From an uncultured bacterium (GTDB lineage: Bacteria > Bacillota_I > Bacilli_A > RF39 > UBA660), in the NCBI GenBank assembly GCA_949292245.1, contig CASEYV010000001.1, positions 247,313 through 283,511 of the forward strand: DNA of 36,199 nt. The letters run 5' to 3'. Shown here piece after piece: positions 7,250 to 28,138 of this stretch (positions are counted from its first letter, which is position 1; each line of letters begins with the position of its first letter). The translations under genes and the position numbers were made by a program. The notes below the pieces were generated by a model. It was not told the origin of the DNA, did no database searches, and saw only the letters and a list, made by a program, of their open reading frames with translations.

Positions 7250-8872
7250 ATGACACAGATTTTATTAGAAAAATATTTAGCTTCTCAATTTAAGTTTGGT
7301 TTTGAACTTGAAGCAATGGTTGAAGATGCTTTGATTGATTTTTCTGATGATTATCATGATGAAGTCGATTATGATTCATTAAATGAAGCAATAAAAGAAG
7401 AAATATCAACCGCTTTTAATTTTTCTGAAGATGAAATAGAAATTAAATACGATGGTTCATTAGAACCTAGTAATAGATTTGATTATGCGTTTGAATGGGC
7501 AACACCAACAATGCAATTTACACCAGAAAATTTAAAAAGAAGTATTCATGGGTTGGATTATTTAATGAATCATAATTTTTATACTAATGAATCTTGTGGT
7601 TTTCATGTTCATTTATCTTTTCCTAACATAACTGACCAAGATGTTATTTGGATAATTTCAAAATTATCCATTGATAAACCAATGTTTAAAAAAATTACTA
7701 ATTTTGAAGGTTTAAATTTTTTTAATGAAGAATATGCCGAAAAAGGTGTATTTGAAAAAATTGGTAAATTAATAAATGAAGAAAAATATAGTGAATTGGC
7801 ACAATATTTTTCAACTAAAAAATATAGAATGTTACATATTCATCCACAAGGAACTTTGGAATGGAGAGGTCCTCGTGATTTCTTAGATGATTATGAAGGT
7901 ATTCATATTGTATATGATTTCTTTAAATTATTACATGAATTTGTTTCTTGGATGAGTAAATCTATATCTGATAATCATATTAATGGTATTAGTAAAGAAA
8001 ATTATTTTAAATTAGTATTTGGTGAAGATGTAAAGGTAAATGATTACATTGATAATTTTAATAAGAAATCTCGTTTTTCCAAAATGAAAAATATAATTAG
8101 TGATGATATTGAAAAAAAATATGTCAATCGTTTTATTAAATTGATGATAAAAAATAAATCAGATTATACACCATCAGTTGAAAAAATATTAAAGTTATAT
8201 ATAGATGATATGTATGCTGATTTTACATTTGCGACAAATATATTAAAAAAATTAATAGAAATGGATGATATATCAACAATAAGATATTTTTTCAATTTGT
8301 TAATTAATGAAAATAATGATTTTGGAAGTTTTTTTAATAACAATATAGAATATACATTATTTGAAAAAATAGTTGAATATTTACTTCAATTTAAAGAAGA
8401 TGAAAAATATATTTCTAATTATGTTTATAGATATTTTAGTAATCTTTCACAGGATAAAAAATATGTATTTGAATATTTCGTTAAAAAGTTCTATGATAAA
8501 TTACCATCAAATACTTGGGAAAAGATATTTCAATCATTAGGCATGATACATAAATATGGAAAATATATTATAGATGAAAAAATGTTTCCTCGTGATTTTA
8601 TTATTGTTTTATTAGAAAGAGGTTTATTTGAAAGTTCAGATGTTTCCGATATTGTTTCAAAAATTACGGATTTAGCAACACAAAATAAAAATAATAAAAT
8701 TTTTGTGAAATGTTTATATAATACTGTATATGATTTCACTAATGTATATGGCGATTTTGAAGAAAGAGTTAATAATTTAAAAGGTGTAGATAATAAGGCA
8801 TATGAATTTTATTCAAAAATAGTAAATGCTATAAAACAAATTAAAGAAAATTTAAATAGGATAATGAAATGA
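7250..8872 (+). CDS. Amidoligase-like protein, paralogue 1
   Basis: Residues about 14-225 match the putative amidoligase family (glutamine-synthetase-like COOH-NH2 ligase fold). The motifs are FGFELE (16-21), Y67-DGS-L71, E82-WATP, N113-ESCGFHVH-121 and K191-YR, then GTLEWRGPRDF (201-211). These are the metal/ATP-binding Glu, His and Arg positions expected of the fold. Such enzymes join a carboxylate to an amine using ATP. Residues 230-540 are a long all-helical extension with no motif I recognise. It is the first of three tandem paralogues, followed in the same unit by a cyclotransferase-like gene. AAGGAG precedes the ATG by 6 bases. Substrate unknown; cytoplasmic. Confidence 0.8.
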   Translation: MTQILLEKYLASQFKFGFELEAMVEDALIDFSDDYHDEVDYDSLNEAIKEEISTAFNFSEDEIEIKYDGSLEPSNRFDYAFEWATPTMQFTPENLKRSIHGLDYLMNHNFYTNESCGFHVHLSFPNITDQDVIWIISKLSIDKPMFKKITNFEGLNFFNEEYAEKGVFEKIGKLINEEKYSELAQYFSTKKYRMLHIHPQGTLEWRGPRDFLDDYEGIHIVYDFFKLLHEFVSWMSKSISDNHINGISKENYFKLVFGEDVKVNDYIDNFNKKSRFSKMKNIISDDIEKKYVNRFIKLMIKNKSDYTPSVEKILKLYIDDMYADFTFATNILKKLIEMDDISTIRYFFNLLINENNDFGSFFNNNIEYTLFEKIVEYLLQFKEDEKYISNYVYRYFSNLSQDKKYVFEYFVKKFYDKLPSNTWEKIFQSLGMIHKYGKYIIDEKMFPRDFIIVLLERGLFESSDVSDIVSKITDLATQNKNNKIFVKCLYNTVYDFTNVYGDFEERVNNLKGVDNKAYEFYSKIVNAIKQIKENLNRIMK

Positions 8873-10602
8873 GTCAACAATTAAATGAACAATTATTAAA
8901 ATCAGATTTCACTTTTGGTTTTGAGCTTGAAGGTTGTGCAAGACTTTCGGATTATAGAGAATATAGTAATGAATATGATTATTATAGTACAAGTGAAGAA
9001 TATGATTTAGAAGTTGATAATGAATATGAAATAACTGGAGAAAGAGCTAGAGCGATAGAAAATAATTTAAATAATTTATTTAATGAAAGAGCTTTACAAA
9101 ATGATATAAAATATGGCGATATTCAAAATGACTGCTCTATTAATCCTTATGGAGATGACAATTCATTTGAATGGGCTTCTCCTGTTATGGATTGCACACC
9201 AGCTAATTTTCAAAGAACAATATATATGGTAACTCATTTAGATGATATTGGTGTTTATACTAATAGTTCGTGTGGTTTCCACCATCATTTGACTTATAAA
9301 GGTATAACGGAAAGAGATATTATTTGGATATATTTAAGTTTATGTATGGATAATGAATTTCGTCATAAAATGACTTATTTAGGCGATATTGATATGAATA
9401 GTACTTGGGCTCCAACATCAGATTTAGATGATATCAGAGATTCAATAATAAAAAAAGATTGGAAAAGATTATTATCAAAATTAAATGATGAAAAATATCG
9501 TCAATTTCGTATTCACCCTTATGGAACTATTGAATGGAGAGGACCTCGTGATTTCTTGAATGACCAAAATATCGAAGTAATAAAATCTTTTTATAAAAAA
9601 TTCAATTATTATATTAATAAAATAATTGAATATCAAGCAAGAGATACAATTTTCGATACTGATATAACAAAAGATGAATTATTTTCTGCATTAACAAAAG
9701 CAAAAGAATCAGATGAAAAATACAATAAAGATAGAGAATTAGAATTCTTATATAGAACTCATGGATATAATGATAGACCGTTAAATATAAAAACAGAACG
9801 TGGAACTATTATTAGTGAAAAATTGATGCATGCTATGATGCATAATCCTGAAATTTTTTATAATTTCGTTATGGAAAAAAGAAAGGGATTACAATCATTA
9901 ATTGCTAATTATGAATATAATTTTGTTGATATATTAGATAAATTATATGAAATGGGTGTTTCAAATGAAAAACAATTTGCAGAAAACTTATTTCAATTAT
10001 TAACATCAGTATATGGTGGAAATATAACAAAAGCATATAATAGTTTAAGAGAATTTAAAGTATATATCGATGAAAGTGTAATTTTAGATAATCTTACAAC
10101 TAAATTAAATAACGGAGAAATATATCTATATGATTTTATTAATACTTTAAATAGAAGTGATATATTATTAGATGCTAGAAGATTTTATCAACTTATATAT
10201 TCTCAAATTGATAATAGTGAATCTTGGAATGGGTTTACATATGAAATGATATTGATTTATATTTTTAATCATTATAGATATGAAGAAGAACTATTTTTAA
10301 AACTTAATTTAATGATTTTAAAAATTGCTTATAAAAATAATTTCTTATTATCAGCTCCGTCTTCCTCATATTATGAATCAGCAATGTCAGACTTTCCAAA
10401 TGATATAAAAACCATTTGGAATAATAGAATTATTGGAGCATTATTTGAAAAACCACAATTATATTCTTTTGCATCATTTATTATCAATACTGATAATTTA
10501 GATTTAAAAGCTCTTATTGCTTTGTGTTCAAGATATGATAAAATTTTTGCAAAATTAGATACAGATATTAGATTTAAAATTAAAAATTATGTTAAGGATT
10601 AA
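8869..10602 (+). CDS. Amidoligase-like protein, paralogue 2
   Basis: This 577-residue protein is a diverged copy of its neighbours. The amidoligase motifs are kept: FTFGFELEG near residues 15-23, DCSI in place of the usual DGSL, FEWASP, NSSCGFHHH, and KYRQFRIHPYGTIEWRGPRDF. It has an inserted acidic, Tyr-rich segment after the first motif (about residues 25-55). A long helical C-terminal region follows, again without recognised motifs. The start overlaps the previous stop as ATGA. The D-C-S variant changes a loop residue but leaves the acid. Substrate unknown; the three copies may form a hetero-oligomer or act on successive substrates, which is inference. Confidence 0.8.
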   Translation: MSQQLNEQLLKSDFTFGFELEGCARLSDYREYSNEYDYYSTSEEYDLEVDNEYEITGERARAIENNLNNLFNERALQNDIKYGDIQNDCSINPYGDDNSFEWASPVMDCTPANFQRTIYMVTHLDDIGVYTNSSCGFHHHLTYKGITERDIIWIYLSLCMDNEFRHKMTYLGDIDMNSTWAPTSDLDDIRDSIIKKDWKRLLSKLNDEKYRQFRIHPYGTIEWRGPRDFLNDQNIEVIKSFYKKFNYYINKIIEYQARDTIFDTDITKDELFSALTKAKESDEKYNKDRELEFLYRTHGYNDRPLNIKTERGTIISEKLMHAMMHNPEIFYNFVMEKRKGLQSLIANYEYNFVDILDKLYEMGVSNEKQFAENLFQLLTSVYGGNITKAYNSLREFKVYIDESVILDNLTTKLNNGEIYLYDFINTLNRSDILLDARRFYQLIYSQIDNSESWNGFTYEMILIYIFNHYRYEEELFLKLNLMILKIAYKNNFLLSAPSSSYYESAMSDFPNDIKTIWNNRIIGALFEKPQLYSFASFIINTDNLDLKALIALCSRYDKIFAKLDTDIRFKIKNYVKD

Positions 10603-10604
10603 AT

Positions 10605-12344
10605 ATGATGGATAATTCATTACTTTTAGAAAGAAAATTAACTTCAGAATTTACATTCGGCTTTGAATTAGAAGCATATGCAGATGATTATGTTAATGTT
10701 GAAAATCCTGATTTAGATGGTAGTGGGGTTATTGAATTTATAGATGAAAGAATTGGACCTGATGGAGATTTTCATAGAGATGGCTCATTATCAGCCGAAG
10801 AAGGTTGTGTATTAATCATTGACCCTGATGATGATATGTATATGTATGAAGATGAAGAAGTAACAAGAGGAGAATTAGAAGAATTATTTGGTGATTTAGA
10901 TAAAGTTCCATTTCAATCTTCTTTTGAATATGCTTCTCCTGTTTTAAGATTTAATCCAGAAAATATACAAAAAGTTATAAAAATGCTTTATGACGGTATG
11001 CAAGGTCATTATTTCTATACAAATGAAAATTGTGGATTTCATCATCATTTATCATTTGATAATATAACAGGTGAAGATGCTGCTTGGATTGTATCTAATT
11101 TAGCTATGGACGATAATGGTAGAAAATTATTATCAACATTTGTTACAAAAAATTATCAAGATGAGGATATTCAATATAATTTTATTACAGCTTGGTCAGA
11201 TGATGGTTATTTAGATTCTCTTAAACAAGCAATAGAAGATTTTGATTTTTCAGCTATTGTTGCATTATTAAATACTGAAAAATATTCTATATTAAATGTT
11301 CATTCAAATAATACTCTTGAATGGAGAGGTCCTCGTGATTTCTTAAATTCACAGATGAGAAATCAAATTGTTGATTTTTATAAACAATTATGGAAATTTG
11401 TTAATTGGATGATAAATGTATTAGATAAAAAAGAAATCAACGGCATGGATAAAAATTTATATATTAAAAATATTTCTTCTGCTGGTGGTGCTAGACCGAT
11501 TGAAACTTTTCCAAGATTTAAAGTTAATAGAAATGAATTATTGGATAATGATACATTGATGGAATTAGTTGATAAAATATCTAATGACCCAAAAATTTTA
11601 TTGAATATGACATCTAATAAAAGAATATTAGACCAAATAATTCAAAAATTATTTAATAGTAGCAAATTAGGTAGAGTAATTAATTCATTATATGATTCTT
11701 TGGATATTGTTCCTGGAACTATTGCTGATATTTCTTACAAATATATACCAGCTGTTATGTATAAAAGAGCGTCATCTGATGCTGTATTTAATACATCTGA
11801 AAGAACATTAAAAAGATTGGTATCAACAAGATATGGTATAGATGATGTTCCATTGTGTGATAGAATAGCTTATTTAGTTCCTCAAATGTCAACTAATTTA
11901 TTATCATCGATTGATAGTGATTTAATAGTTGATATTATTGATAAATCTCAATATAAATTATTAGACTTTTTATTTGGATATTTAAATGATGAACAAGCAT
12001 CTTTAATGATAAGGAATGCCTTGGATAATTATTCACAAAATATTGATATTGAAAAAATATATAATAATTTACCAAATAATAGTTTAAAATCAGAAATTAA
12101 AGAATATTTTAAGAAAAAAATTATTGACAAACCATTTTATATAAAGTATATTGAATCATCAGATATAGATAATTATACTTTAATTTCTATTATCGGCTAT
12201 GCGATGCGTAGAGGAGATTTCGATAAAGTAAAAGAATTTTTAATTTCTACTGGTAAAGTTTCAAAGAAAAAAATAGAAGAAATGGAAAATTATTTTACAA
12301 AATATTATGAACATGATTTAAACGATGAAATAGAACAATTTTAG
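10605..12344 (+). CDS. Amidoligase-like protein, paralogue 3
   Basis: Third 579-residue copy. The motifs are FTFGFELEA near residue 16, RDGSLS, FEYASP, NENCGFHHHLS, and KYSILNVHSNNTLEWRGPRDF. The K-Y-R of the other two copies is K-Y-S here, so one conserved basic residue is lost, while the E-x-R of EWRGPRDF stays. A very acidic insert (residues about 28-95, including an E/D-only run) separates the first two motifs. The C-terminal 330 residues are helical. AAGGA lies 6 bases before the first of two adjacent ATG codons. It follows paralogue 2 after 2 bases, clearly one transcript. Whether all three copies are active cannot be told from sequence. Confidence 0.8.
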   Translation: MMDNSLLLERKLTSEFTFGFELEAYADDYVNVENPDLDGSGVIEFIDERIGPDGDFHRDGSLSAEEGCVLIIDPDDDMYMYEDEEVTRGELEELFGDLDKVPFQSSFEYASPVLRFNPENIQKVIKMLYDGMQGHYFYTNENCGFHHHLSFDNITGEDAAWIVSNLAMDDNGRKLLSTFVTKNYQDEDIQYNFITAWSDDGYLDSLKQAIEDFDFSAIVALLNTEKYSILNVHSNNTLEWRGPRDFLNSQMRNQIVDFYKQLWKFVNWMINVLDKKEINGMDKNLYIKNISSAGGARPIETFPRFKVNRNELLDNDTLMELVDKISNDPKILLNMTSNKRILDQIIQKLFNSSKLGRVINSLYDSLDIVPGTIADISYKYIPAVMYKRASSDAVFNTSERTLKRLVSTRYGIDDVPLCDRIAYLVPQMSTNLLSSIDSDLIVDIIDKSQYKLLDFLFGYLNDEQASLMIRNALDNYSQNIDIEKIYNNLPNNSLKSEIKEYFKKKIIDKPFYIKYIESSDIDNYTLISIIGYAMRRGDFDKVKEFLISTGKVSKKKIEEMENYFTKYYEHDLNDEIEQF

Positions 12345-12356
12345 TTGAGTTAAAAA

Positions 12357-12725
12357 ATGGTCAATATTTACGGTTTTTGGATTTCTCCGTTAGGAGAAAT
12401 CCATACTATTTTTAATGACTTTGGTCATAAACAATTTATGGAACAACTTTTAAATAAAAAAATTGATTCCGAAGTTTCTGAAGAAAATTCTTTATTTGAT
12501 GAAGGTTGGATTAGAATAGTAAATACACAGCAAACATTAATGGTAAATTATAGGTGCATTACTTCTAATAAACAACTATCTGCTATTAAGTTAATTGAAG
12601 AACAATTAAATAAAGATGGATATTTTCATAATAATTATATATTAGATTACGGTTATGACTATCATTTCTTCGATTCTTTGGATAAATTAATTAGAAGAAT
12701 TAGAGAAAGGCTTTATGATGTCTAA
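12357..12725 (+). CDS. Hypothetical protein in amidoligase operon, 122 aa
   Basis: A 122-residue protein beginning MVNIYGFWISPLGEIHTIFN, with a later GWIRIVN strand and a basic C-terminus (RRIRERL). The FWISP-x-GEI opening followed by a conserved GH and GWIR is, from memory, shared by small phage proteins of unknown function. Its place between the third amidoligase and the cyclotransferase-like gene, overlapping the latter by 11 bases, suggests a linked role, but nothing in the sequence shows a reaction. Confidence 0.7.
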   Translation: MVNIYGFWISPLGEIHTIFNDFGHKQFMEQLLNKKIDSEVSEENSLFDEGWIRIVNTQQTLMVNYRCITSNKQLSAIKLIEEQLNKDGYFHNNYILDYGYDYHFFDSLDKLIRRIRERLYDV

Positions 12726-13143
12726 TAATGCAGAAAATGAATATATCTATGTAATGGTATATGGAACATTAATGCGTGGTCAATATAATAACGGATATAT
12801 GGATTTAGCACAAGCTATTTATGTTGATGATGTAGTTTCTGATTTATCAGAATATAGAATGGTTGGTGTTAGTAATTCTTTTCCTGGTATTGTTGCAGGT
12901 GATAAAAAATTTGAAGGAGAATTATTTAAAGTTACAGCTAGTGATGTAGTTCATTATTTAGATAAATTGGAAGGATATCCTTATATGTATGATAGAGGAT
13001 TTATTACAGTTAAATCTAAAACATCAAATATGAAATATACTGCATTGGTATATTTTTTAACACCTATGTTTATTAAAGAAACTAAGTTAGATTTAGTTTC
13101 TCCGTATATTACATTAAAAAATGATGTATATAAATGGAATTAG
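12715..13143 (+). CDS. Gamma-glutamylcyclotransferase-like (AIG2/GGCT) protein
   Basis: The 142-residue protein shows the GGCT fold signatures: V-YGTLMRGQYNN at residues 15-26 (substrate-binding loop) and LDKLEGYPYMYDR at 82-94. E86 sits where the catalytic glutamate of the family lies. Family members cleave gamma-glutamyl amides by cyclising the glutamate to 5-oxoproline. In published genomic surveys, AIG2-like genes are neighbours of amidoligases, so this protein could remove or trim what the three upstream ligases attach. AAAGG at 12706-12710 is 4 bases from ATG 12715 and 7 bases from ATG 12718; the latter may be the true start. The gene ends just before the tmRNA region. Confidence 0.85.
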   Translation: MMSNNAENEYIYVMVYGTLMRGQYNNGYMDLAQAIYVDDVVSDLSEYRMVGVSNSFPGIVAGDKKFEGELFKVTASDVVHYLDKLEGYPYMYDRGFITVKSKTSNMKYTALVYFLTPMFIKETKLDLVSPYITLKNDVYKWN

Positions 13144-13280: not shown

Positions 13281-13289
13281 ATTATTTTA

Positions 13290-13320
13290 TTGACAATTAA
13301 AATAAAATAGTTTATAAATA
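13290..13320 (+). promoter_or_regulatory. Sigma70-like promoter of the tmRNA gene, overlapping a T4-late-like box
   Basis: TTGACA (13290-13295), a 17-base spacer and TATAAA (13313-13318) form a near-consensus sigma70 promoter about 5 bases before the expected RNA start near 13325. The same -10 box reads TATAAATA (13313-13320), so it could also serve as a T4-type late promoter. Confidence 0.8.
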
Positions 13321-13324
13321 ATTT

Positions 13325-13391
13325 TGAAGTTGATAGAAAACAATGAAATAGAGTTTACTGGACGTGGATGCGAATTCCACCTGCTTCACCA
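13325..13391 (+). ncRNA. tmRNA acceptor piece (T-arm and CCA end)
   Basis: The T stem GTGGA/TCCAC (13364-13368 with 13376-13380) encloses the loop TGCGAAT. The second loop base is G where tRNAs almost always have T. CTGCTTC, A and CCA follow directly. The upstream part contains GAAAT and TTTACT, which can pair with the coding piece. The 5' end is set by the promoter and is approximate. Confidence 0.9.
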
Positions 13392-13475
13392 ATGGAGATA
13401 AACTGTTAGCCACAGGTATATAGAAAAGGTGTGCACACCGAATTGGTGCAATTCCAATAATCTCCTTATTTTTAT
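13392..13475 (+). ncRNA. Intervening segment between the two tmRNA pieces
   Basis: These 84 bases should be removed from the precursor. GGAGAT (13394-13399) pairs with ATCTCC (13460-13465), closing a structured loop that holds the self-complementary GGTGTGCACACC and a GAATT/AATTC hairpin. This would hold the two pieces together during processing. Confidence 0.75.
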
Positions 13476-13673
13476 GGGGCAGACAAGGGTTGACAGTGAT
13501 TAGTAAAGATTAGTTTAGATTTCCGGTGAGATACCACCGTTATCGGTTCAAATTAAAATGAACGCTAATGAAAACGTTAATTATAACTATAATGTAATGG
13601 CTGCTTAATCCTAATAGGATTGCATAATTACAAAATAGTGGGGTAACAGATGACCTTGCAACAGAATTTCTGT
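13476..13673 (+). ncRNA. tmRNA coding piece
   Basis: It starts GGGGCAG at 13476, includes the D-loop-like region, pseudoknot and tag frame, and has hairpins AATCCT-AAT-AGGATT (13607-13621, including the tag stop) and ACAGA-ATT-TCTGT (13661-13673). The exact 3' end is not fixed by sequence; the terminator begins right after. Confidence 0.85.
13564..13608 (+). other. tmRNA tag reading frame, ANENVNYNYNVMAA
   Basis: Fourteen codons from resume codon GCT 13564 to TAA 13606-13608. The tag begins Ala-Asn-Glu-Asn like many bacterial tags and ends in Ala-Ala, the core of the ClpXP degron, but has Met instead of the usual Leu before it. The frame sits about 20 bases after the pseudoknot, the normal distance. 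Confidence 0.88.
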
Positions 13674-13702
13674 AAAAAACTCCCTTTAAAGGGAGTTTTT
13701 TT
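13674..13702. terminator. Bidirectional terminator between tmRNA and minus-strand fibre gene
   Basis: AACTCCCTTTAAAGGGAGTT is a perfect palindrome flanked by an A-run on the left and a T-run on the right, so it can end the tmRNA transcript (plus) and the convergent fibre-tip gene (minus), whose stop codon overlaps it at 13701-13703. Confidence 0.9.
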
Positions 13703-14117
13703 AATTTGGATATATATAACAAATAGAATTACTACCAGTATGACGTATGACATCACCTTTTTTTAATGGAATAAACATACTGTTAAATTCTTCCCAATTA
13801 CCAGAAGAACCATATGAGGTAGCAAATAAAATATTATTGACATAAAAATATCTTCGACCTACATAACTTGTATTACCCCACCATACCCAATTATTTTCTG
13901 TTAGTGTATAATCTGTATTAGCTGGAACAGTTATTCGACCTTCTGTTTTTAATGTTGGATATTGTAAAACATAATTTTTATCTGTTAATTTATTTTCTAA
14001 TACATTAATTTTATTAGTTAATAATGATTCTAATTCATTTAATTTATCTGATATAGAAGATAATTGATTTTCTAATCCATCTATTCTATTAATATCTATT
14101 TTTGATATATCCGACAT
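13701..14117 (-). CDS. Short fibre/tip-like protein with coiled coil, 138 aa
   Basis: I start the gene at the ATG complementary to 14115-14117 (MSDISKIDINRIDG) because AAGGAG lies 6 bases upstream and a TATAAATA box falls inside the longer frame that begins at 14144. Residues 15-50 are a heptad-like coiled coil (LENQLSSISDKLNELESLL and on). Residues 60-138 form a compact, aromatic-rich beta domain (NNWVWWGNTSYVGRRYFYV, then FIPLKKGDVIR) like the tips of trimeric phage fibres. The first seven residues are shared with the other minus-strand gene of this region at 21307, suggesting the same attachment partner. Function is probably receptor contact; this is inference. Confidence 0.75.
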   Translation of the reverse strand: MSDISKIDINRIDGLENQLSSISDKLNELESLLTNKINVLENKLTDKNYVLQYPTLKTEGRITVPANTDYTLTENNWVWWGNTSYVGRRYFYVNNILFATSYGSSGNWEEFNSMFIPLKKGDVIRHTGSNSICYIYPN

Positions 14118-14133
14118 GTTAACTCCTTTAAAA

Positions 14134-14141
14134 TATTTATA
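14134..14141 (-). promoter_or_regulatory. T4-late-like box for the minus-strand fibre-tip gene
   Basis: TATAAATA on the minus strand, 16 bases before the chosen ATG at 14117. Confidence 0.45.
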
Positions 14142-14170
14142 CAAATGAAAAAGATATACATCTACGTTTC

Positions 14171-17460: not shown

Positions 17461-18675
17461 ATGAGTAACAAAATTAATTTAAAACGAATTAAAAATATGA
17501 ATGATATAGATTTAGTTGCTGATAATTATATTATTAGTGAAAATAATAATATAAAATCGGTTAATAAGTTTTATTTTAGTTCTTTTTTAAATTCCGATGA
17601 CGTGATTAAAGATTTTAAAATTATTTCAATAAATGATAATATAATTACATATTCAGATGGTTCATTATTATCACCAGAAATAAACGGTAAAAGATATAAA
17701 TTAAATATAATAGGTGAATCTAAAAATATTGATGAATCGATAGATAATAATGGAACAGCAGATAAAATAAATTCTAAATTATGGAATCAACCTATATTAT
17801 CAGCTAATGATTCATCTGAATATATGACAGTAGAAGCTGAAGATTATTTAAATGAATATTATCCTTGGAAAGCATTTGATGGTTCAAATATAGATGAAAG
17901 GGATTGTTGGCATACAACAGAATCATCATTACCAAAATGGTTACAAATAAACTTTAAATACCCTTTAACAATAGATACTATTGCAATTCAAAATAGAAAT
18001 ATTACTGAAACAGATACCCATGCTATAATGATTTCATTTAAAATATATGGTTTAAATTTAAATGATGAATGGGAAGAAATAATATACGTTGATAATATAA
18101 ACACAATAGTTAAAAATAAAATTAATAATGCTTGGAATGATTATGAACCTTATGATAATGACAAATTATACAAGGCAATAAAATATGTTTGTTTAAGTTC
18201 AATAGCAAATACTTCTGTATCTATCGGAAGATTTGAAATTATTGGAAGATATAAAGGATATTCTTTACCTGAAAGTTATTATAATGTTTTTGTAATTGGT
18301 AAAGAAAATGAAGAAAATCCTGAACCAAAAATAGTTACTACATTAGATGAATATCCAACAATGCCAGAAGGATATACATACGGAATAAAATTAGGATATT
18401 TTAAAACTCAATTAGATAAATCTATTTCTTATTTTTATCCAAAACAAGATTTAGCCACTTCTTATGAAAACAGATTTATAATTGCGGAGCAATTAGGAAC
18501 AACTGGTTATCGTATATATTCTGATGGATGGAAAGAACAATGGGGTGTATCTGCTAATCCGACATTCCCAGTTGCATTTGATGAAATACCTTTGATTGTT
18601 GAAAGAGGAGCAACAAATGTAACAAAAACAGGTATGACAATCGCAGAACAAAGATGGAAAGTAGAAGGTTATTAA
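17461..18675 (+). CDS. Tail fibre with discoidin-like domain, 404 aa
   Basis: Residues 1-80 form a head with SDG-type strands. Residues about 107-267 are a discoidin-like (F5/8 type C-like) domain: YYPWKAFDGSN, then CWHTTESSLPKWLQINF, TIDTIAIQNRN and GRFEIIGRYK. The C-terminal 80 residues (from about 324) are the shared terminal domain GTTGYRIYSDGWKEQWG, ending in KVEGY. That domain has a repeated Gly/aromatic pattern seen at the ends of many phage fibres. DNA of this end is nearly identical to the ends of the next two genes. AAGG lies 5-6 bases before the ATG. Likely receptor-binding. Confidence 0.85.
   Translation: MSNKINLKRIKNMNDIDLVADNYIISENNNIKSVNKFYFSSFLNSDDVIKDFKIISINDNIITYSDGSLLSPEINGKRYKLNIIGESKNIDESIDNNGTADKINSKLWNQPILSANDSSEYMTVEAEDYLNEYYPWKAFDGSNIDERDCWHTTESSLPKWLQINFKYPLTIDTIAIQNRNITETDTHAIMISFKIYGLNLNDEWEEIIYVDNINTIVKNKINNAWNDYEPYDNDKLYKAIKYVCLSSIANTSVSIGRFEIIGRYKGYSLPESYYNVFVIGKENEENPEPKIVTTLDEYPTMPEGYTYGIKLGYFKTQLDKSISYFYPKQDLATSYENRFIIAEQLGTTGYRIYSDGWKEQWGVSANPTFPVAFDEIPLIVERGATNVTKTGMTIAEQRWKVEGY
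18434..18641 (+). repeat. Fibre C-terminal DNA repeat, copy A
   Basis: 18434-18600 matches 20593-20759 (copy C) at 165 of 167 bases by eye. 18469-18641 matches 19982-20154 (copy B) over 173 bases with about ten differences. The repeats encode the shared GTTGYRIYSDGW terminal domain. Confidence 0.9.
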
Positions 18676-18676
18676 T

Positions 18677-20188
18677 ATGAATAAAGTAAAATTTAATCGT
18701 TTTGAAAAATATATACCAGATGCTATTGATAATGGAATTTTAACAGTTTCAAATGATGAAACTTGCTTAGAATATTCTACTTTAAATGATTTTAATAAAA
18801 AATGTGGTAGAAATAATTTAACAAATGGATTTGATATTTCATTTAATGAAAATATTTTTACTATTGGAAAAGGTCAAACATTTTTACACTCAAAATTAGG
18901 ATATGAATTTAATACTGAAAATACAACAGCGACATTAAATGTTTATAATGATATATGGGGAGTAAATTCAATATATAAATTTGAAAAAAATACCTATATA
19001 ATTAATGATATTAATGAACATTATAATGATGAACAAAATGGTTGTGATTATTCAGTTATGGTTTATAATCAACCAACCATGGCATCAAATACATCCCCAT
19101 ATGGTGTTGCTTCTTCAAATAGTCCTCATGCTAGTGCTAATTGGAGTCCTTGGAAAGCATTTAATAGAGTGGCAACAGGTGATAATTGTTTTGCTTCAGC
19201 TGATGTAGCTGGTGCTCCATTTCCTGTTAATTTAGTATATTCGGTTTCAGCTGATGGTTCTAAATGGGTTAAACCTAAAAGTTTTTATATTCAAAATCGT
19301 AATGTAACTGGTGCTGGAATAGCATCCCCATTAGTATTTACAATTCAAGGTTCAAAAGTATTACACCCATATGATGATTTAGATTGGGTAACATTAGTTA
19401 ATGTTGATAATGTTAATTTAAAACAGCCAACTGGTCAAGCACAATCAAATACATATACAACAGATACATCTGAATATTTTAGACATTTTAGATTACATAT
19501 TATTTCAAAAAGTACAGCTGTAAATTATGTTGCTGTTCAACAATTTAATATTGTAGGAGAAATTAAAGATAATATTGCTTTATTAAATCCTGCCCATAAC
19601 TATTTTTTAGTATATGCTAAAAAAGGTGAAGAATATAAAACAATATTTGTATCTTCTAAAAATAATATACCACAATTAGATTCTTCACTTGAATTAATAG
19701 ATTATTGTCCAATTTATTCATATAAAAACATTAATGATTATAATAATATGATTCTTTATAATAAAACAAATGTTGATAAAATTGATATATCAGATTATTT
19801 AACTACAAATGGATTATATAAAGTTTATTTAACATATTCTGATAATGAATATTCTTATTATATTTCATTAAATGATAAATTACCTAATGATAAAGTTTGT
19901 AAAAAAATATTTGAATTTAAAGTTTTAAATAATATTGTTTATGATTATTACCCTAAAAAATCTTTAAATGATTCTTACCTTAACAGATTTATAATTGCGG
20001 AGCAATTAGGAACAACTGGCTATCGTATATATTCTGATGGATGGAAAGAGCAATGGGGTAATTTAGCTAATCCTGTATTTCCGATTGCATTTGATGAAAT
20101 ACCTTTGATTGTTGAAAGAGGAGCAACAAATGTAACAAAAACAGGTATGACAATAGCTTCTGGTAATTGGTTTGCAAAAGGATATTAA
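18677..20188 (+). CDS. Tail fibre with discoidin-like domain, 503 aa
   Basis: Starts one base after the stop of the preceding fibre (TAATATG). Residues about 128-295 are another discoidin-like domain, different in sequence from the neighbour's: NWSPWKAFNRV, PKSFYIQNRN, FTIQGSKV and then FRHFRLHI. Residues 300-430 form a beta-rich shaft or second domain. The last 68 residues repeat the shared terminal domain, ending WFAKGY. The last 25 bases spanning the stop are identical to the end of the 14211 gene. Probable receptor-binding fibre. Confidence 0.85.
   Translation: MNKVKFNRFEKYIPDAIDNGILTVSNDETCLEYSTLNDFNKKCGRNNLTNGFDISFNENIFTIGKGQTFLHSKLGYEFNTENTTATLNVYNDIWGVNSIYKFEKNTYIINDINEHYNDEQNGCDYSVMVYNQPTMASNTSPYGVASSNSPHASANWSPWKAFNRVATGDNCFASADVAGAPFPVNLVYSVSADGSKWVKPKSFYIQNRNVTGAGIASPLVFTIQGSKVLHPYDDLDWVTLVNVDNVNLKQPTGQAQSNTYTTDTSEYFRHFRLHIISKSTAVNYVAVQQFNIVGEIKDNIALLNPAHNYFLVYAKKGEEYKTIFVSSKNNIPQLDSSLELIDYCPIYSYKNINDYNNMILYNKTNVDKIDISDYLTTNGLYKVYLTYSDNEYSYYISLNDKLPNDKVCKKIFEFKVLNNIVYDYYPKKSLNDSYLNRFIIAEQLGTTGYRIYSDGWKEQWGNLANPVFPIAFDEIPLIVERGATNVTKTGMTIASGNWFAKGY
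19982..20154 (+). repeat. Fibre C-terminal DNA repeat, copy B
   Basis: Direct repeat of 18469-18641. Most differences cluster in one short stretch (about 20050-20085), with long identical runs on both sides, as gene conversion or recent duplication would leave. Confidence 0.9.
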
Positions 20189-20189
20189 T

Positions 20190-20834
20190 ATGTCAATAAA
20201 AGTAGATAATAATAGATTAGAAGTATTATTAAATGAATATAACAATCATGCAAATGAATTGGCATATTTTTTATCGCCAACAGAAATTTCATATAAAAAT
20301 AATGAAGAAATAATTAATAATGTTAGTAATTTAAATGTTTTGGTTGGTTTAGAATTATCAACATATTTAAATATTATCATAATATCTAATGGTTATTTTT
20401 ATGATAGTGAATTAAATAAAATAATAAATTTTGAAAAGCCAAATTCTATAAAAATAGAAAATTTAGAAAATGGAAAATACGGAATATATTATATATTTTC
20501 TAATGAATCTTTTATCTATTCATTAAATGAACCGGAAGAAAAATATAGAAAAATTGGTGAATTTGAATATAAAGATTCTAATATTATAAAAATTTATCCA
20601 AAACAAGATTTAGCTACTTCTTATGAAAACAGATTTATAATTGCGGAGCAATTAGGAACAACTGGTTATCGTATATATTCTGATGGATGGAAAGAGCAAT
20701 GGGGTGTATCTGCTAATCCGACATTCCCAGTTGCATTTGATGAAATACCTTTGATTGTTACTAATGGAGCTACTAATATCACATTAACAAATATGACTAT
20801 TGCTGATGGATATTGGTATGCTTGTGGATATTAA
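20190..20834 (+). CDS. Short tail-fibre protein with shared terminal domain, 214 aa
   Basis: The start is at ATG 20190, with AAAGG in the end of the preceding gene; an upstream in-frame ATG at 20172 lies inside that gene. Residues 1-130 are an Asn/Ile-rich head without the discoidin-like domain of the two preceding fibres. Residues 135-214 are the shared GTTGYRIYSDGW terminal domain, diverging in the last 25 residues and ending WYACGY. It may be a reduced paralogue made by recombination. Its stop overlaps the convergent gene's stop by a few bases. Confidence 0.8.
   Translation: MSIKVDNNRLEVLLNEYNNHANELAYFLSPTEISYKNNEEIINNVSNLNVLVGLELSTYLNIIIISNGYFYDSELNKIINFEKPNSIKIENLENGKYGIYYIFSNESFIYSLNEPEEKYRKIGEFEYKDSNIIKIYPKQDLATSYENRFIIAEQLGTTGYRIYSDGWKEQWGVSANPTFPVAFDEIPLIVTNGATNITLTNMTIADGYWYACGY
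20593..20759 (+). repeat. Fibre C-terminal DNA repeat, copy C
   Basis: 167 bases that differ from 18434-18600 only at two third-codon positions by eye (GCC/GCT and GAA/GAG). After this point the sequence diverges abruptly. Confidence 0.9.
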
Positions 20835-21407: not shown

Positions 21408-23183
21408 ATGGTTACTACACCTAACATAAAAATTAATACAAGTATGATAAATGATTTTGAAACTCCTGTTTCAAATAGTGGAAATCAAAATACTTATTTG
21501 CGTATTAATGAAAATAATAAAATTGATTATTTTTCAATAGATGAATTAATAAAAGATATTAATGACCATGGTGGAACAACAACAAGCGGAGATTCAAAAG
21601 GAAATAATTGGAAACCATCAGAAACATATGTTTTGGATGATATTGTTGTTTATAATTATTCTTTTTATCAATGTCGTGTTAATAAAACAAATAAAGAAGA
21701 ATTTGACCCATCAGAATGGATATTATTAGCTGGTTATTCTAAGCAATCATTTTTCTATTATAATTCAGCAGAAGAAATATCTCAAATAGTTTTAGATGAA
21801 CCTGTTGCTAATAAAGGCTCATTTAATATTAATGTTAATAATTTATTATTACAATCTAATAATTATAATTTAGAGTTAGATAATAAAACAATTACTTTTT
21901 TAGAACCTATTGCTCCAGATACAAATATTGAAGTAATTGTATATGGAAATATGATTATTCCAACAGAAGTTTCAAATATAGTTACCAAAACTTTTTTAAC
22001 AGTTGAAGATACAACTACATTTGAATTAGGTGAAATAGTTAATAAAAAAGAATTAATTACAGTTAATATTGAAAATACAGTTCTTATGAATTCCGAATGG
22101 GATTTAGATGAAACATTATCAAAAGTAGTTTTAAAAAATCCTGTTCCTAAAAATACAAGAGTTCAAATTTCTTTCTTTAATAATTTGGAATTAAAATTAG
22201 GTGCTACATTTACTCCAACATTGACAAGAGATGATAATATTACAACTACAATTTCTTGGGAAAATGACGGTGGTTTAATAAATCCTGTAGATTCATACAT
22301 TTATGATGGTGTAACATTTACTCCTCATACTTCAAAAACTGGTGTTCATACAACCATTTCTTGGACTAATAATGGAGAAAAGGAAAATCCTGAAGATGTT
22401 ATTGTATCTGACGGTGCTACATTTACACCTACTGTTTCAAAAGAAGGTTTGAATACAACTATTACTTGGGATAATGATAATGGTTTACCAAATCCTGATA
22501 CTGTTGTTATTGAAGACGGTGCTACATTTACACCGCATACAACTCAAACTGTTCATGAAGCAACTATTTCTTTTACAAATAATAAAGATTTAGATAATCC
22601 TGAAACAATTTCAATTTATACTAATTATGCTCAAAGAATTGTTGAATCATTTACAGCAACAGAAGGTCAAACAGAATTTGTTGCTTCACATGAAATTTAT
22701 GATAAGTCAGTTTTATCAGTAAATGTTGGAAATACTGAATTAACATCAGCAGCATATTCATTAGGTGAAGATAAAAGAACTGTTACTTTGGTTAATGGAT
22801 TATCTGAAGGTGATTTAGTTGATATTAAATATTTTTATAATTTAAATTTCGGAACAGAAGGTTCTACTTATGTTCCACAAATAGAAGAAATTGAAAATGG
22901 TTATACATTATCATGGACTAATAATGGTGATTTACCAAATCCAGACCCAGTAAATATTATGAGTGGTTCTGGTATTAATACCATGGGAGCTTGGTCAGCT
23001 GAAACAATTTATAATAAAAATGATTATGTAACTTTTGATGATGATACAGCTAGTTATGGCTATGTTGGATTGGTAAATAATATTCCAGCTGGAACATTAT
23101 TAACTGATACAAATTATTGGTCAGAAATGTATAAAATTTTAAAAACTTATATTGCAGCAACTATGATAGATTGGGGTGAATAA
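21408..23183 (+). CDS. Tail fibre with chitin-binding-like modules and tandem beta repeats, 591 aa
   Basis: Residues about 60-105 are a chitin-binding-like module (NNWKPSETYVLDDIVVYNYS and following). Three copies of a beta module of about 65 residues with a VNV/VNI-x-N strand occur at about 110-185, 195-262 and 410-475. Residues 265-405 hold four tandem repeats of about 35 residues that open with GATFTP/GVTFTP and contain TTISW-x-N. The end has a fifth related unit and another aromatic binding-type module (GAWSAETIYNKNDYVTFD). This composition fits a long fibre shaft with lectin-like patches. Its TAA overlaps the ATG of the next gene, so the two are translated together. Confidence 0.8.
   Translation: MVTTPNIKINTSMINDFETPVSNSGNQNTYLRINENNKIDYFSIDELIKDINDHGGTTTSGDSKGNNWKPSETYVLDDIVVYNYSFYQCRVNKTNKEEFDPSEWILLAGYSKQSFFYYNSAEEISQIVLDEPVANKGSFNINVNNLLLQSNNYNLELDNKTITFLEPIAPDTNIEVIVYGNMIIPTEVSNIVTKTFLTVEDTTTFELGEIVNKKELITVNIENTVLMNSEWDLDETLSKVVLKNPVPKNTRVQISFFNNLELKLGATFTPTLTRDDNITTTISWENDGGLINPVDSYIYDGVTFTPHTSKTGVHTTISWTNNGEKENPEDVIVSDGATFTPTVSKEGLNTTITWDNDNGLPNPDTVVIEDGATFTPHTTQTVHEATISFTNNKDLDNPETISIYTNYAQRIVESFTATEGQTEFVASHEIYDKSVLSVNVGNTELTSAAYSLGEDKRTVTLVNGLSEGDLVDIKYFYNLNFGTEGSTYVPQIEEIENGYTLSWTNNGDLPNPDPVNIMSGSGINTMGAWSAETIYNKNDYVTFDDDTASYGYVGLVNNIPAGTLLTDTNYWSEMYKILKTYIAATMIDWGE
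22200..22620 (+). repeat. Four tandem coding repeats (GATFTP units)
   Basis: Units begin at about 22200, 22308, 22413 and 22518, 105-108 bases each, in frame with the 591-aa fibre. They vary in sequence but keep GATFTP, TTISW and NP positions, so they are structural protein repeats and not recent DNA copies. Confidence 0.8.
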
Positions 23184-25318
23184 TGACTTTATATTTCGGA
23201 AATGATGAAGTTTCACAAAAAGTTTTATTAAGTACTGTTGGTTCAAATTTACCAGAAATTACAACAGAAACAAGTGGAAAAATTTTAAGTAATAATGGAA
23301 CTGAATTGGAATGGGTTGATAAACCATCAGGAAAAATTATTGGTTCTTTTGGTTATACATTAGATGAAGTAGCCCCAGATGGTTGCGTATTTTGTGATGG
23401 TAGTGAATATGAAAAAGCTAAATTTCCTGATTTTTATCAAAGTTTAGTTGACAATAAAAGAAAATCAGTTGATTATGCAACATTTAATTCTTCTGTATCG
23501 ACAAATGGAAGTTGTGGTTTTTTTGGGTTAGAAAGTACTGCAATTACATTATATGCTTGGGAAGATAGAGATTATATTATATATACTAAAAGTGAAAATC
23601 CATTAGTCGGAGATAGTATTTTTGATAATGTAGGAAATAAAAGAGGAACTATAACTGTTTATGATGGTGGTCAATATATAGAAGATGTTAATTTTTCTTC
23701 TAATATTTCTTTATTAGCTCCAGAACCTGGAGTATATACTAGAAGTCAATCATCAGATATAACAATTAATGGAGAATATACAGGTAAATTTAAAGTTCCT
23801 ATGCTTAAAGATGTTTATTTAAAAGCTGGTCAAGAACCTGTTATTTTTGGAGGTGAAAGTTTACCAAATATTACTGGTGATTTTCAATGTAGAACAGGAA
23901 ATATAGCAAATGGAGCGTTTTCTAATACTAAATCTGGCGTGGGTCAAGCATATTGGGCAAATACCGATAATGATTCTCCATATAATGTTAGTTTTAATGC
24001 ATCTAATAGTTCGGAAATATATCAAGACGGAGCAAAAGTAAATCCTGATTATGTTGCTTATAAAGTTTTTGTTGTTATTTATAATGCTGAAACTGAAATT
24101 AGTGAATCACAAACATCAGAATTTTTAAATACTGTTAATGAAATTAATAATAAAATTGACAATTCAAAAACAAACTGTTTAACTAAAATTCCACAAGATA
24201 TTAAATTGGAATTATCTGAAGATGGAACATTAACATTAAAATCAGGTTCTAAAGTTTATATTCCAAATGGATTTGAAGAAGATGGTATAACAAGAAAATT
24301 TGATGAAATTATATTAGATACTAACTATTCAGGATTTTCTTGGATAGCAAGTACTGAATCACATTTAATATTTTATAATATAAATCAACAATTATTTGAT
24401 GGTGGTGCACTTAATAGAGCAGTATCAGCAGAAATATTTCCAGAATCTCCACAAAATGGAGATAGATGCTATAGAACAGATGAAAATAAAATTTATGTTT
24501 ATAGAACTAATGGTTGGGAAGAAGGAGAAACTTTACCTCTTGGTATTATAAAAGGGTCTGGTGAACTAGGTATAGTTAAATCAATCGACCAAATATTTAA
24601 TGGATTTGGTTATATAGGTAATACTCTTTTTACATTACCTGGAATTGAAGGCTTAATTCCTAATGGATATAATGAAGATGGTAGTTTAAATAATATTAAG
24701 TCTGTAACTAGTAATGTTGTACTTTATAATAGTCATGCAAGTCTAAATAATTGGCCTGTAATTTTAAAAAATGACAGTACTATGTATCCGTTATCCGATT
24801 ATTTAGAAGCAGACACATATCCTTACCAACCTGCAACGGGTAAATGGTATTCTTACTATTCGAAAAAAGATAATAAAATATATCAATCTGATAATGGAAG
24901 TGTGTGGATTCAATCATATGGGTATATTATGGGAAAACTATCGACAGACACTAGCTTTAAAATAACCTCATTCCAACCTAAGCTCCCATTCCAATCTGTT
25001 GATAGAAATGATACAGAATGGGCAAGTATAGCTGGAAAACCAAGTAAAAAATATGTCAATATTAATTTAACAGCTTCTGGAACAAAATTAATAATGCCTG
25101 ATAATGGATTTATATATTGTACAGTAGATTCGGGGGCTGGTTCAAGATTAGCAATGTATGATTCAGATTTCCCTTATAGAAATATTTTTCAAATTCCAAA
25201 TACTGATGCTGGTCGTATTGGTGGTGGATTATTAGTTAAAAAAGGAGATAGTATAACAATAGATTATAGTGGAACAATTGTAAATTGTATTTTTACATAT
25301 GATGAAGGTTCTAAATAA
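23183..25318 (+). CDS. Tail fibre with collar-like domain and carbohydrate-binding-type end, 711 aa
   Basis: Residues 1-45 resemble the N-terminus of the 434-aa fibre further on (GKILSNNGTELEWV). A collar-like domain spans about 47-303, beginning KIIGSFGYTLDEVAPDGCVF and ending with a PDYVAYKVFVVIYN strand. It has an unusually long insert. From about residue 331 comes the module NCLTKIPQDIKLEL with GSKVYIPNG, later SIDQIFNGFGYIGNT and LIPNGYNEDGSLNNI, which recurs in the next fibre genes. The last 130 residues form a separate beta-rich tip. Probable host-surface binding. ATG overlaps the previous stop (TAATG). Confidence 0.85.
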   Translation: MTLYFGNDEVSQKVLLSTVGSNLPEITTETSGKILSNNGTELEWVDKPSGKIIGSFGYTLDEVAPDGCVFCDGSEYEKAKFPDFYQSLVDNKRKSVDYATFNSSVSTNGSCGFFGLESTAITLYAWEDRDYIIYTKSENPLVGDSIFDNVGNKRGTITVYDGGQYIEDVNFSSNISLLAPEPGVYTRSQSSDITINGEYTGKFKVPMLKDVYLKAGQEPVIFGGESLPNITGDFQCRTGNIANGAFSNTKSGVGQAYWANTDNDSPYNVSFNASNSSEIYQDGAKVNPDYVAYKVFVVIYNAETEISESQTSEFLNTVNEINNKIDNSKTNCLTKIPQDIKLELSEDGTLTLKSGSKVYIPNGFEEDGITRKFDEIILDTNYSGFSWIASTESHLIFYNINQQLFDGGALNRAVSAEIFPESPQNGDRCYRTDENKIYVYRTNGWEEGETLPLGIIKGSGELGIVKSIDQIFNGFGYIGNTLFTLPGIEGLIPNGYNEDGSLNNIKSVTSNVVLYNSHASLNNWPVILKNDSTMYPLSDYLEADTYPYQPATGKWYSYYSKKDNKIYQSDNGSVWIQSYGYIMGKLSTDTSFKITSFQPKLPFQSVDRNDTEWASIAGKPSKKYVNINLTASGTKLIMPDNGFIYCTVDSGAGSRLAMYDSDFPYRNIFQIPNTDAGRIGGGLLVKKGDSITIDYSGTIVNCIFTYDEGSK

Positions 25319-25329
25319 AATAATAATTA

Positions 25330-25344
25330 TATAAATATTATTAT
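25330..25344 (+). promoter_or_regulatory. T4-late-like promoter motif before the 132-aa gene
   Basis: TATAAATATTATTAT, 21 bases before ATG 25366. It sits at the centre of an AT-only inverted repeat (25319-25327 with 25337-25344). Confidence 0.5.
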
Positions 25345-25365
25345 AATATTTAAAAAGGAAAAAAT

Positions 25366-25764
25366 ATGTTTTTAGGTTATCAAATAAATCAAAATGGTGA
25401 AGAATTTATTGCTAGTGCAAGAGAAAATCGTGAAGATTTAGAAAATAATATCTTTATGAAATTTACTAAAATTGAAGAAGTTAATGATGATGTTGAATTA
25501 GTTTCTGGAAAATATTATGTTGGTAAAGAAAAAATAAAAGAAGCTCAATCTGAAGCTATGAGAAAAATTAGAGATTCTTATTTAGTTCAATATGTAGATT
25601 CAGTTGTTTCTAATCCATTAAGATGGGCAGATATGTCAGCAGAAGAACAACAAGATTATAAAGATTATAGACAATATCTTTTAAATGTTCCTCAATCAGA
25701 AAACTTTCCAGGTTTTGAAATTTTAACTTTTGATGTTTGGAAAAAAGAAGCAAAAGGAAATTAA
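25366..25764 (+). CDS. Probable tail-fibre assembly chaperone, 132 aa
   Basis: Residues 1-60 open with MFLGYQINQNGEEFIA and short strands. Residues 65-130 are a helical region, KIRDSYLVQYVDSVVSNPLRWADMS followed by QQDYKDYRQYLLNVPQSENFPG and FDVWK. This pattern (R-x-x-L, W-x-x-M, Y-R-x-L, F-P) is that of phage tail-fibre assembly/Tfa-type C-terminal domains. It stands between fibre genes, as such chaperones usually do. AAAAAGGA precedes the ATG. It has its own late-like promoter motif. Confidence 0.7.
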   Translation: MFLGYQINQNGEEFIASARENREDLENNIFMKFTKIEEVNDDVELVSGKYYVGKEKIKEAQSEAMRKIRDSYLVQYVDSVVSNPLRWADMSAEEQQDYKDYRQYLLNVPQSENFPGFEILTFDVWKKEAKGN

Positions 25765-25799
25765 TTTTAATCATTTTAATAATTTTAAGTAATAATTAT

Positions 25800-25843
25800 A
25801 ATCCTTTTAAATGAATAAATATTTTTATAAGTTTAAAAGGATT
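25800..25843 (+). promoter_or_regulatory. Long hairpin spanning late-like promoter and ribosome binding site
   Basis: Twelve-base perfect arms (AATCCTTTTAAA at 25800-25811 and its complement at 25832-25843) are followed by a T-rich run. The loop contains AATAAATATTTTTAT, and the right arm contains the AAAAGG binding site of the gene at 25850. It may end upstream transcripts and hide the site in read-through RNA, while RNA started inside the loop would lack the left arm. This is inference. Confidence 0.5.
25814..25828 (+). promoter_or_regulatory. Late-like promoter motif before the 434-aa fibre gene
   Basis: AATAAATATTTTTAT, 21 bases before ATG 25850, inside the hairpin loop described above. 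The longer context AATAAATA-Y-TTTTATAAG is shared with 14171. Confidence 0.5.
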
Positions 25844-25849
25844 TTTATT

Positions 25850-27154
25850 ATGGCAAAAACAAGTGTCGATATACCTCAATTAAAATTTAATAAAATGAGT
25901 ACAGCTAAATATGAAGAATTAAAATTAGCTGGACAATTAAATGATAATGAATTTTATATTACTCCTGATGATAGTACACTTCCAGAAGTAAATGAATCAA
26001 CAAATGATTTTGTATTATCAAATAATGGTACTGATTTAAATTGGGTTCAAGAAACAGAATATACAAAAAATAGAATTGATTCAAAATTAGATGATAATAT
26101 TAGAACAAATTGTATCACTAAAATTCCACAAGACATTCATTTAGAACTTAATGATGGAACTCTTACACTTAAAGCAGGTAGTAAAGTGTATATACCAAAT
26201 GGTGTAGGTGTGTTTGATGAATATATATTTTCATCCGATTTAATCAGAACAAAAGAATCTAGTTTATATGATATTCCCATGGTAATTTTATTATATAGAC
26301 AAGATATTAATTTTATTGATTTTTTTCCTCTTTCGAGAGTTTATAGTGGAAATACTGAACCTGATACAAGTACATATGACATTTGGTTTGATACTTTAAA
26401 TAATAAAATAAAAACCAACTTGGATACAGTTTGGACAGAAACAAATACTTCTTTACCTTTTGCAATAGGAACGGTTTCTAGTACTTCAGGATTTGTTTCA
26501 ATCGACCAAGTATTTAACGGCTTTGGATATATAGGTAGCACAATATTTGCTTTACCTGGAGTTGAAGGATTAATTCCAAACGGTAGAAATACTGATGGTA
26601 GTTTAAATAATATTAAATTCACGACATCTAATGTAGTTACTCGTTCAGATATGGGTAATGATAAAAATCTTTCATTTGCATTAAATATAGAGGGATATTT
26701 TAATTACGGAAATTATAATATTAATGGTGATAATTATTTGATTTCAGGATACGGAAGCAATTTAAAGGAATTTGTATGTGGAACTTATCAAACAGATTCT
26801 ACTGGTCGTATTATCAATTTAAACTATAAAAATGTATTTCAGTTAATTGATAAAAATAATGGTTTGACATTTCCACAATATGATAAAACAGAAACAATTA
26901 CTTTTACATCAAATCAATCATATGTAATTCCATATGATTGTGAATTGTTTTTTTGTCAATCAACAAATAGTGACGGCGGAAATATTAAATTAAGATATGG
27001 AGATGCACAAGGTCCAATAATATTTTATTGTGGGTCATCAACTTTTATGAGTGTTAGTTCTGATAGAATATATTTAAAAAAAGGTACACGAGTATATTGT
27101 GAAAATTTTAATGGGACTTCTTGGTTTGCAACAAATATAACTCCGTTAGGATAA
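25850..27154 (+). CDS. Tail fibre, 434 aa
   Basis: The start is placed at ATG 25850 (MAKTSVDIPQLKF), with AAAAGG 9 bases upstream. A frame from 25811 would add 13 residues translated from the promoter. The opening (FNKMSTAKYEELKLAGQLND) and VLSNNGTDLNWV resemble fibre N-termini that attach to the virion. From residue 86 the recurring module NCITKIPQDIHLEL, GSKVYIPNG, SIDQVFNGFGYIGST and LIPNGRNTDGSLNNI appears. The last 130 residues are a distinct beta-rich tip with SDGGNIKLRYGD. Probable adhesin. Confidence 0.8.
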   Translation: MAKTSVDIPQLKFNKMSTAKYEELKLAGQLNDNEFYITPDDSTLPEVNESTNDFVLSNNGTDLNWVQETEYTKNRIDSKLDDNIRTNCITKIPQDIHLELNDGTLTLKAGSKVYIPNGVGVFDEYIFSSDLIRTKESSLYDIPMVILLYRQDINFIDFFPLSRVYSGNTEPDTSTYDIWFDTLNNKIKTNLDTVWTETNTSLPFAIGTVSSTSGFVSIDQVFNGFGYIGSTIFALPGVEGLIPNGRNTDGSLNNIKFTTSNVVTRSDMGNDKNLSFALNIEGYFNYGNYNINGDNYLISGYGSNLKEFVCGTYQTDSTGRIINLNYKNVFQLIDKNNGLTFPQYDKTETITFTSNQSYVIPYDCELFFCQSTNSDGGNIKLRYGDAQGPIIFYCGSSTFMSVSSDRIYLKKGTRVYCENFNGTSWFATNITPLG

Positions 27155-27169
27155 TTAAAAAGGAATAAA

Positions 27170-28135: not shown

Positions 28136-28138
28136 TTA

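Follow-up and report, generated by a model that had tools for sequence, protein, structure and literature searches.

Transfer-messenger RNA (tmRNA) frees stalled ribosomes and tags unfinished proteins. Here, we report a circularly permuted, two-piece tmRNA gene in what we call the window, i.e., the whole stretch of DNA analyzed, which is the last 36,199 bases of the 283,511-bp contig C1 (CASEYV010000001.1) of a public metagenome-assembled genome (MAG). A preliminary description of this DNA had placed such a gene in a phage with T4-like traits, and covariance models, ARAGORN, compensatory changes and a syntenic sister phage agree on it. In Rfam cmscan, the alpha_tmRNA model RF01849 matched 13286-13676 (+) with 85.5 bits (E 5.6e-22; cut-off 50 bits) and the tmRNA_permuted model RF04321 matched 13332-13608 (+) with 85.6 bits (cut-off 47 bits); two permuted-tmRNA models thus score above cut-off, and the lack of any match, which the preliminary description had named as speaking against the gene, did not occur. 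ARAGORN also calls a permuted tmRNA (tmRNA*), with the tag ANENVNYNYNVMAA*.

The acceptor (3′) piece comes first (13326..13391, +), as delimited by the Rfam alignments, ARAGORN and compensatory pairs, with a putative transcript start at ~13326. On reading the sequence, it contains the T-arm GUGGA-UGCGAAU-UCCAC (13364-13380, +), followed by the acceptor 3′ strand CUGCUUC (13381-13387, +), the discriminator A (13388) and CCA (13389-13391). An intervening sequence of 84 nt (13392..13475, +), expected to be removed during maturation, separates the CCA from G1 of the coding (5′) piece (13476..13677, +), which contains the conserved GCAACAGAA motif and whose 3′ end is approximate, with the RF01849 alignment reaching 13676. 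This order of CCA half, structured spacer and 5′ half, with CCA at 13391, can be read directly from the sequence, as had been claimed. The coding half opens with GGGGCAG (13476-13482), which forms an acceptor stem with CUGCUUC across the spacer in which 7/7 pairs are made, including G-U at 2:71 and 3:70. The G3-U70 alanine identity pair (13478-13385), the G-U third pair of the preliminary description, is G-U in all 36 related tmRNAs compared, in which pair 5:68 is C-G, A-U, G-C or U-G and pair 6:67 is A-U, U-A or C-G. The T-stem also has compensatory changes compared with relatives. Judged from these alignments, the covariation of the acceptor stem is real compensatory change across the permutation. 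A P2 helix between the pieces can be paired (UUACUG 13355-13360/CAGUGA 13494-13499), with its distal part poorly aligned in the Rfam models.

Within the coding piece, we read an H-type pseudoknot (13524..13544, +) from the stems CGGUG 13524-13528/CACCG 13535-13539 and GAUA 13530-13533/UAUC 13541-13544, which fits a conserved alpha_tmRNA block (CCGGu..GAUACCACCGUUAUCGG). Another 19 nt downstream, close to the distance of about 20 bases first described, the resume codon GCU (13564) opens the ARAGORN tag frame (13564..13608, +) of 14 codons plus stop with a hydrophobic ..AA end.

The promoter (13290..13320, +) consists of TTGACA (13290-13295), 17 nt and TATAAATA (13313-13320), i.e., sigma70-like -35 and -10 elements overlapping a T4-type late motif, TATAAATA being the established T4 late-promoter motif. 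The sigma70 promoter proposed earlier holds as far as its -35 and -10 elements are present, but the promoter is not simply sigma70, the -10 region being TATAAATA. By pattern search, TTGACA-N17-TATAAA (here at 13290-13318) occurs twice in the window against 0.27 expected. There are eight TATAAATA sites in the window, an overall count below chance, and those near starts or the tmRNA lie at 7223, 13313, 14141(-), 21372, 25330 and 32805(-). Four of the eight are 27-36 nt upstream of annotated open reading frame starts, a fifth is 24 nt upstream of ATG 14117 (a start read by eye), and a sixth precedes the tmRNA; 5/8 sites are therefore 24-36 nt before starts, compared with 3% expected. This placement suggests late expression of the tmRNA, perhaps in addition to earlier sigma70 transcription. 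Behind the gene, where a terminator had been predicted, there is a bidirectional intrinsic terminator (~13674..13702), a hairpin of -14.5 kcal/mol with a T-run that is shared with the convergent minus-strand gene 13701-14144. A generic promoter/terminator scanner called neither promoter nor terminator at the locus; it missed the promoter because its -10 rule demands T in the last position, and it probably missed the terminator since the stem, through A/T pairs, continues into the T-run.

A search with the pseudoknot motif found a sister phage, the IMG/VR viral contig IMGVR_UViG_3300028833_000348 (L028), whose clamp loader is 72% and metallophosphoesterase 64% identical to those of the window phage. 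In both, a tail fibre starting with MVSILDNKK is encoded downstream of the tmRNA (47% over the first 211 columns), and in the window a short minus-strand gene separates the two. The L028 tmRNA has an RF04321 score of 101.3 bits, and TTGACA-N17-TATAAATA precedes it as well, as the sole TATAAATA in its 14.3 kb. Its tag, read from the sequence, is ANDNLAYNYNVMAA*; the tag end YNYNVMAA is the same as in the window, and the middle of the tag has diverged. A tag pattern search returned only L028 among viral contigs and nothing in genomes. For the clamp loader, the first scan for relatives was empty, and a two-sequence alignment search gave only L028 and two distant contigs. The window and L028 group weakly in a tmRNA tree (support 0.66), the molecule being too short for a firm origin. 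The same place, the same promoter and a related tag in L028 indicate a resident phage gene, and in the simplest reading of these sequences the tmRNA gene would be old and vertically kept in the phage lineage.

Judging from its genes, C1 is, as far as sampled, a T4-like jumbo phage: it encodes a T4-like clamp loader, tail collar, baseplate wedge (972 bits), tail tube, DnaB-like helicase and the anaerobic ribonucleotide reductase NrdD, along with ~27 tRNAs, and the deposited phages nearest to its clamp loader are jumbo phages such as PA5oct (37%). The bin's own tmRNA is one-piece and on another contig (tag DETNYSFAPAFA, 110.6 bits). The phage contig yielded no SmpB gene, and the only SmpB of the assembly is on another contig. 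In a search of 39 genomes for the permuted form, only the source MAG was above cut-off, and a weaker match (L004) was a one-piece gene; permuted tmRNA was absent in 22 of 23 other genomes of the same genus, and the remaining one had a sub-cut-off match to its one-piece gene. In the MAG's genus, 29 other genomes gave no clamp loader, and neither did 190 genomes from the alphaproteobacterial class, where an empty result says little. By their motifs, the closest tmRNAs are those of gut alphaproteobacterial MAGs. We infer that the phage is either misbinned or infecting a one-piece host, and that its relatives favor an alphaproteobacterial host. The proposed link to a host lineage with two-piece tmRNA needs qualifying: models and relatives indicate Alphaproteobacteria, but the bacterium of the bin has a one-piece tmRNA. 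As for the public MAG itself, it includes with C1 a contig of jumbo-phage size that makes up ~17% of its bases, and its size and gene content would be inflated if the phage is misbinned.

The 84-nt spacer contains a 72-nt cloverleaf (13394..13465, +) in its minimum free energy fold (-19.1 kcal/mol). The closing stem is GGAGAU/AUCUCC, with a D-like arm (13403-13423), a short third arm (13428-13439) and a T-like arm AUUGG-UGCAAUU-CCAAU (13442-13458) directly before the closing strand. The fold energy has a z of ~ -2, and the reverse strand folds about equally well. In a shuffle test devised after the fold had been seen, 74/5000 dinucleotide shuffles of the spacer form any cloverleaf, 1/5000 combine a cloverleaf with a 5-bp/7-nt last hairpin, and 0/5000 also have a TNCRANN loop; no other 84-nt slice of the window shows the same combination of cloverleaf and T-arm. 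The Rfam tRNA model had no match to the spacer at E<=10, and for a model made from 28 phage tRNAs the spacer was not among the E<=10 matches, by which a true tRNA gene inside the spacer is ruled out. The element is, as far as these models and the predicted fold go, tRNA-shaped and not a tRNA gene. As a separate observation, a phage tRNA-Met(CAT) (L017:806-881, -) has the unusual T-loop UGCAAGU, with G at position 55, resembling the loops of the window tmRNA and of the spacer cloverleaf.

For a wider comparison of spacers, we used the span of the RF04321 match as a proxy for spacer length, which is 277 for the window tmRNA. Among the matches listed, alphaproteobacterial spans have a median of 217.5 and 5/150 reach 277, while among viral contigs at least 30 kb long, a set drawn from one sequence pattern, 13/21 have a match span of 277 or more (median 282; Mann-Whitney p ~1e-10, in which independence is overstated, phages being related). 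Nine of the 11 other phage or viral-contig tmRNAs examined also span at least 277. Phage spacers are often 85-200 nt (L027, L060, L061, L063, L065-L069; L078-L149), and in several named phages the spacer is closed by an 8-14 bp stem beside the acceptor; gut alphaproteobacterial relatives mostly have 7-18 nt, and the sister phage L028 has 5 nt. Going by these sequences, permuted tmRNAs of phages appear generally to carry spacers far longer than those of bacterial genes. Spacers of 166-173 nt with long inverted repeats occur in the tmRNAs of three gut alphaproteobacterial MAGs (L037, L038, L046). A non-exhaustive literature search found no earlier report on spacer length in phage tmRNAs. We also considered a tRNA-like spacer as a general trait of viral tmRNAs and rejected it: the phage-tRNA model had, as far as checked, no strong match inside a spacer over 80 viral contigs, and only one spacer, that of Phaeobacter phage MD18, had a score, a weak one (10 bits, E 0.49). 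In the MD18 spacer (L063:311-400), a T-arm-like hairpin, AGCGG-TTCGAAA-CCGTT, abuts a 7-bp stem, and another hairpin has the loop TTGATCA.

Taken together, the locus very probably holds a two-piece tmRNA gene that is resident in a T4-like jumbo phage and most likely works, the host of the phage probably being a gut alphaproteobacterium. A single precursor would be transcribed from ~13326 to the terminator at ~13700, RNase P would cut before G13476, and exonucleases or tRNase Z would trim to the encoded CCA at 13391, with loss of the 84-nt spacer. The acceptor stem and the helix near 13355-13360/13494-13499 would then hold the pieces together. Host alanyl-tRNA synthetase (AlaRS) could charge the RNA via G3-U70, and host SmpB, invoked here as C1 yielded no such gene, would deliver it to stalled ribosomes. 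There the stalled product would receive ANENVNYNYNVMAA, whose ...AA end would mark it for ClpXP-type proteases of the host. The cloverleaf spacer probably joins the halves in the precursor and may offer tRNA-like ends to processing enzymes. The late-type promoter suggests that the tmRNA would be used late in infection, when ribosomes are stalled on cut or decaying mRNA. That the phage takes over ribosome rescue, as the preliminary description suggested, is a hypothesis.

Several points weigh against this account. The RF04321 score is below those of alphaproteobacterial genes (~127-166 bits among the matches listed), part of the P2 helix aligns poorly to the models, the G2-U71 pair and the UGCGAAU T-loop are unusual, and the contig is binned with a bacterium whose own tmRNA is one-piece, which makes the host assignment tentative. 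The bit score under that of host genes, G2-U71, the altered T-loop and the weak P2 alignment would also be expected if the phage had acquired a host tmRNA that is now non-functional and decaying. We consider such decay improbable, as every pair of the acceptor stem is made, with compensatory changes when compared with L028 and hosts, the 14-codon tag is open with its ..AA end in both phages despite the diverged middle, and promoter and terminator are kept in both. That the contig sits in a bacterial MAG might also indicate a bacterial chromosomal gene put here by misassembly or binning, to which we give almost no credence: the one-piece tmRNA of the bin is on another contig, the 23 other genomes of the genus hold no permuted match above cut-off, phage genes flank both sides, and the gene stands beside the same tail-fibre gene in the independent viral contig L028, a synteny that rules out misassembly or host-gene contamination.

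The spacer cloverleaf may have started as a tRNA gene inserted between the halves and since decayed, rather than as a shape selected for processing; we lean against this while granting it a fair chance. Counted from its first acceptor base to its last, the cloverleaf has 72 nt, its T-like arm differs from the T-arm of the phage tRNA-Phe at 3/17 positions, its excision leaves a 12-nt spacer (AT + TTATTTTTAT) near the host norm, the L028 spacer at the same place is only 5 nt, and an intact tRNA-Ala within the spacer of one permuted tmRNA has been reported (PMC11915505). However, neither the Rfam tRNA nor the phage-tRNA model scores the spacer, the third arm is short, there is no CCA, and pair 7:66 is mismatched. 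Somewhat less likely, the fold arose by chance and has no role. A z of only ~ -2, a reverse strand that folds similarly and a cloverleaf test picked after viewing the fold would all allow it, but a single shuffle in 5000 gives the cloverleaf with the 5-bp/7-nt hairpin and none has the T-loop consensus in addition, the window contains no further 84-nt slice that matches, and long spacers recur among phage tmRNAs. It is with still more doubt that we propose the long folded phage spacers to be an adaptation, i.e., a processing module that would hold the halves together and recruit RNase P and tRNase Z, possibly giving fast maturation independent of the host's usual trimming during infection.

Elsewhere in the window, 7250-13143 contains three large paralogues in tandem that have amidoligase-like motifs (Amidoligase_2 is just below cut-off in two), followed by one small gene and then a gamma-glutamyl cyclotransferase gene; by their sequences, these possibly form a peptide-ligation/cleavage cassette in the phage. 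Three consecutive tail-fibre-like genes at 17461-20834 have near-identical C-terminal blocks (ENRFIIAEQLGTTGYRIYSDGWKEQWG). At 23183-32266, repeated modules (CLTKIPQDIKLEL..., FNGFGYIGNT...LPGVEGLIPNG) run across several tail genes, and a 1375-aa protein there carries several module copies.

Two-piece phage tmRNAs, so far mainly marine or aquatic, are extended here to an apparent gut or rumen jumbo phage lineage. The spacer-length pattern raises the question of why the maturation of a ribosome-rescue RNA would be under phage control, and the gene gives a hint of an alphaproteobacterial host for a phage contig inside an unrelated MAG. A permuted tmRNA in a T4-like phage had been held to be a notable novelty, which overstates the case: a two-piece tmRNA is described in the T4-like marine phage Melnitz, 53 ARAGORN-predicted ones in phages, mostly marine or aquatic, have been reported (PMC9004378), and such genes are common in viral contigs, of which at least 120 stretches matched a loose pattern of ours. 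Permuted tmRNA genes are also present, and unannotated as tmRNA, in the records of RpAliso, RcXuper, Cp1R7A-A1, Phosso, DSS3P8, V10, RcRudolph and RcSimone-Hastad. The record L002 (MT836065.1), named 'Bacteriophage sp.', resembles a piece of alphaproteobacterial chromosome that has an ssrA of its own and, after it, an sspB-like reading frame.

Melnitz shares with the window phage the permuted alpha-type tmRNA, T4-like replication genes and a long spacer (142 nt in Melnitz, as measured in this analysis). It differs in its glutamine riboswitch and its tag ANDNYVPVDYALAA, whereas the window phage, a jumbo phage of the gut, has the tag ANENVNYNYNVMAA, a late-type promoter motif and a spacer that folds as a cloverleaf. 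With alphaproteobacterial ssrA (RF01849; Caulobacter-type), the window gene has in common the gene order, T-arm/CCA, acceptor stem and pseudoknot block, the AN(D/E)N tag start, the ..AA end and the GCAACAGAA 3′ motif; unlike alphaproteobacterial ssrA, its tag ends in ..NVMAA, and the spacer of mostly 7-18 nt in gut relatives compares with its 84 nt. The permuted tmRNA whose spacer is reported to hold a tRNA-Ala is that of GCA-2688965, a nominally archaeal MAG (PMC11915505); this tRNA-Ala is likewise a tRNA-sized, tRNA-shaped element between the halves, but the window element is unscored by tRNA models and its carrier is a phage. The roseophages and Rhodobacter phages MD18, DSS3_MAL1, RcXuper, DSS3P8, V10 and RcRudolph also have a phage permuted tmRNA with a folded spacer (97-111 nt) and a long closing stem, although these closing stems are stronger than that of the window, and among those folded only MD18 has a T-arm-like hairpin abutting a 7-bp stem. 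While the two-piece phage tmRNA itself is already known, what is new here is the cloverleaf spacer, the long-spacer pattern of the phage copies and the promoter overlapping a T4-type late motif.
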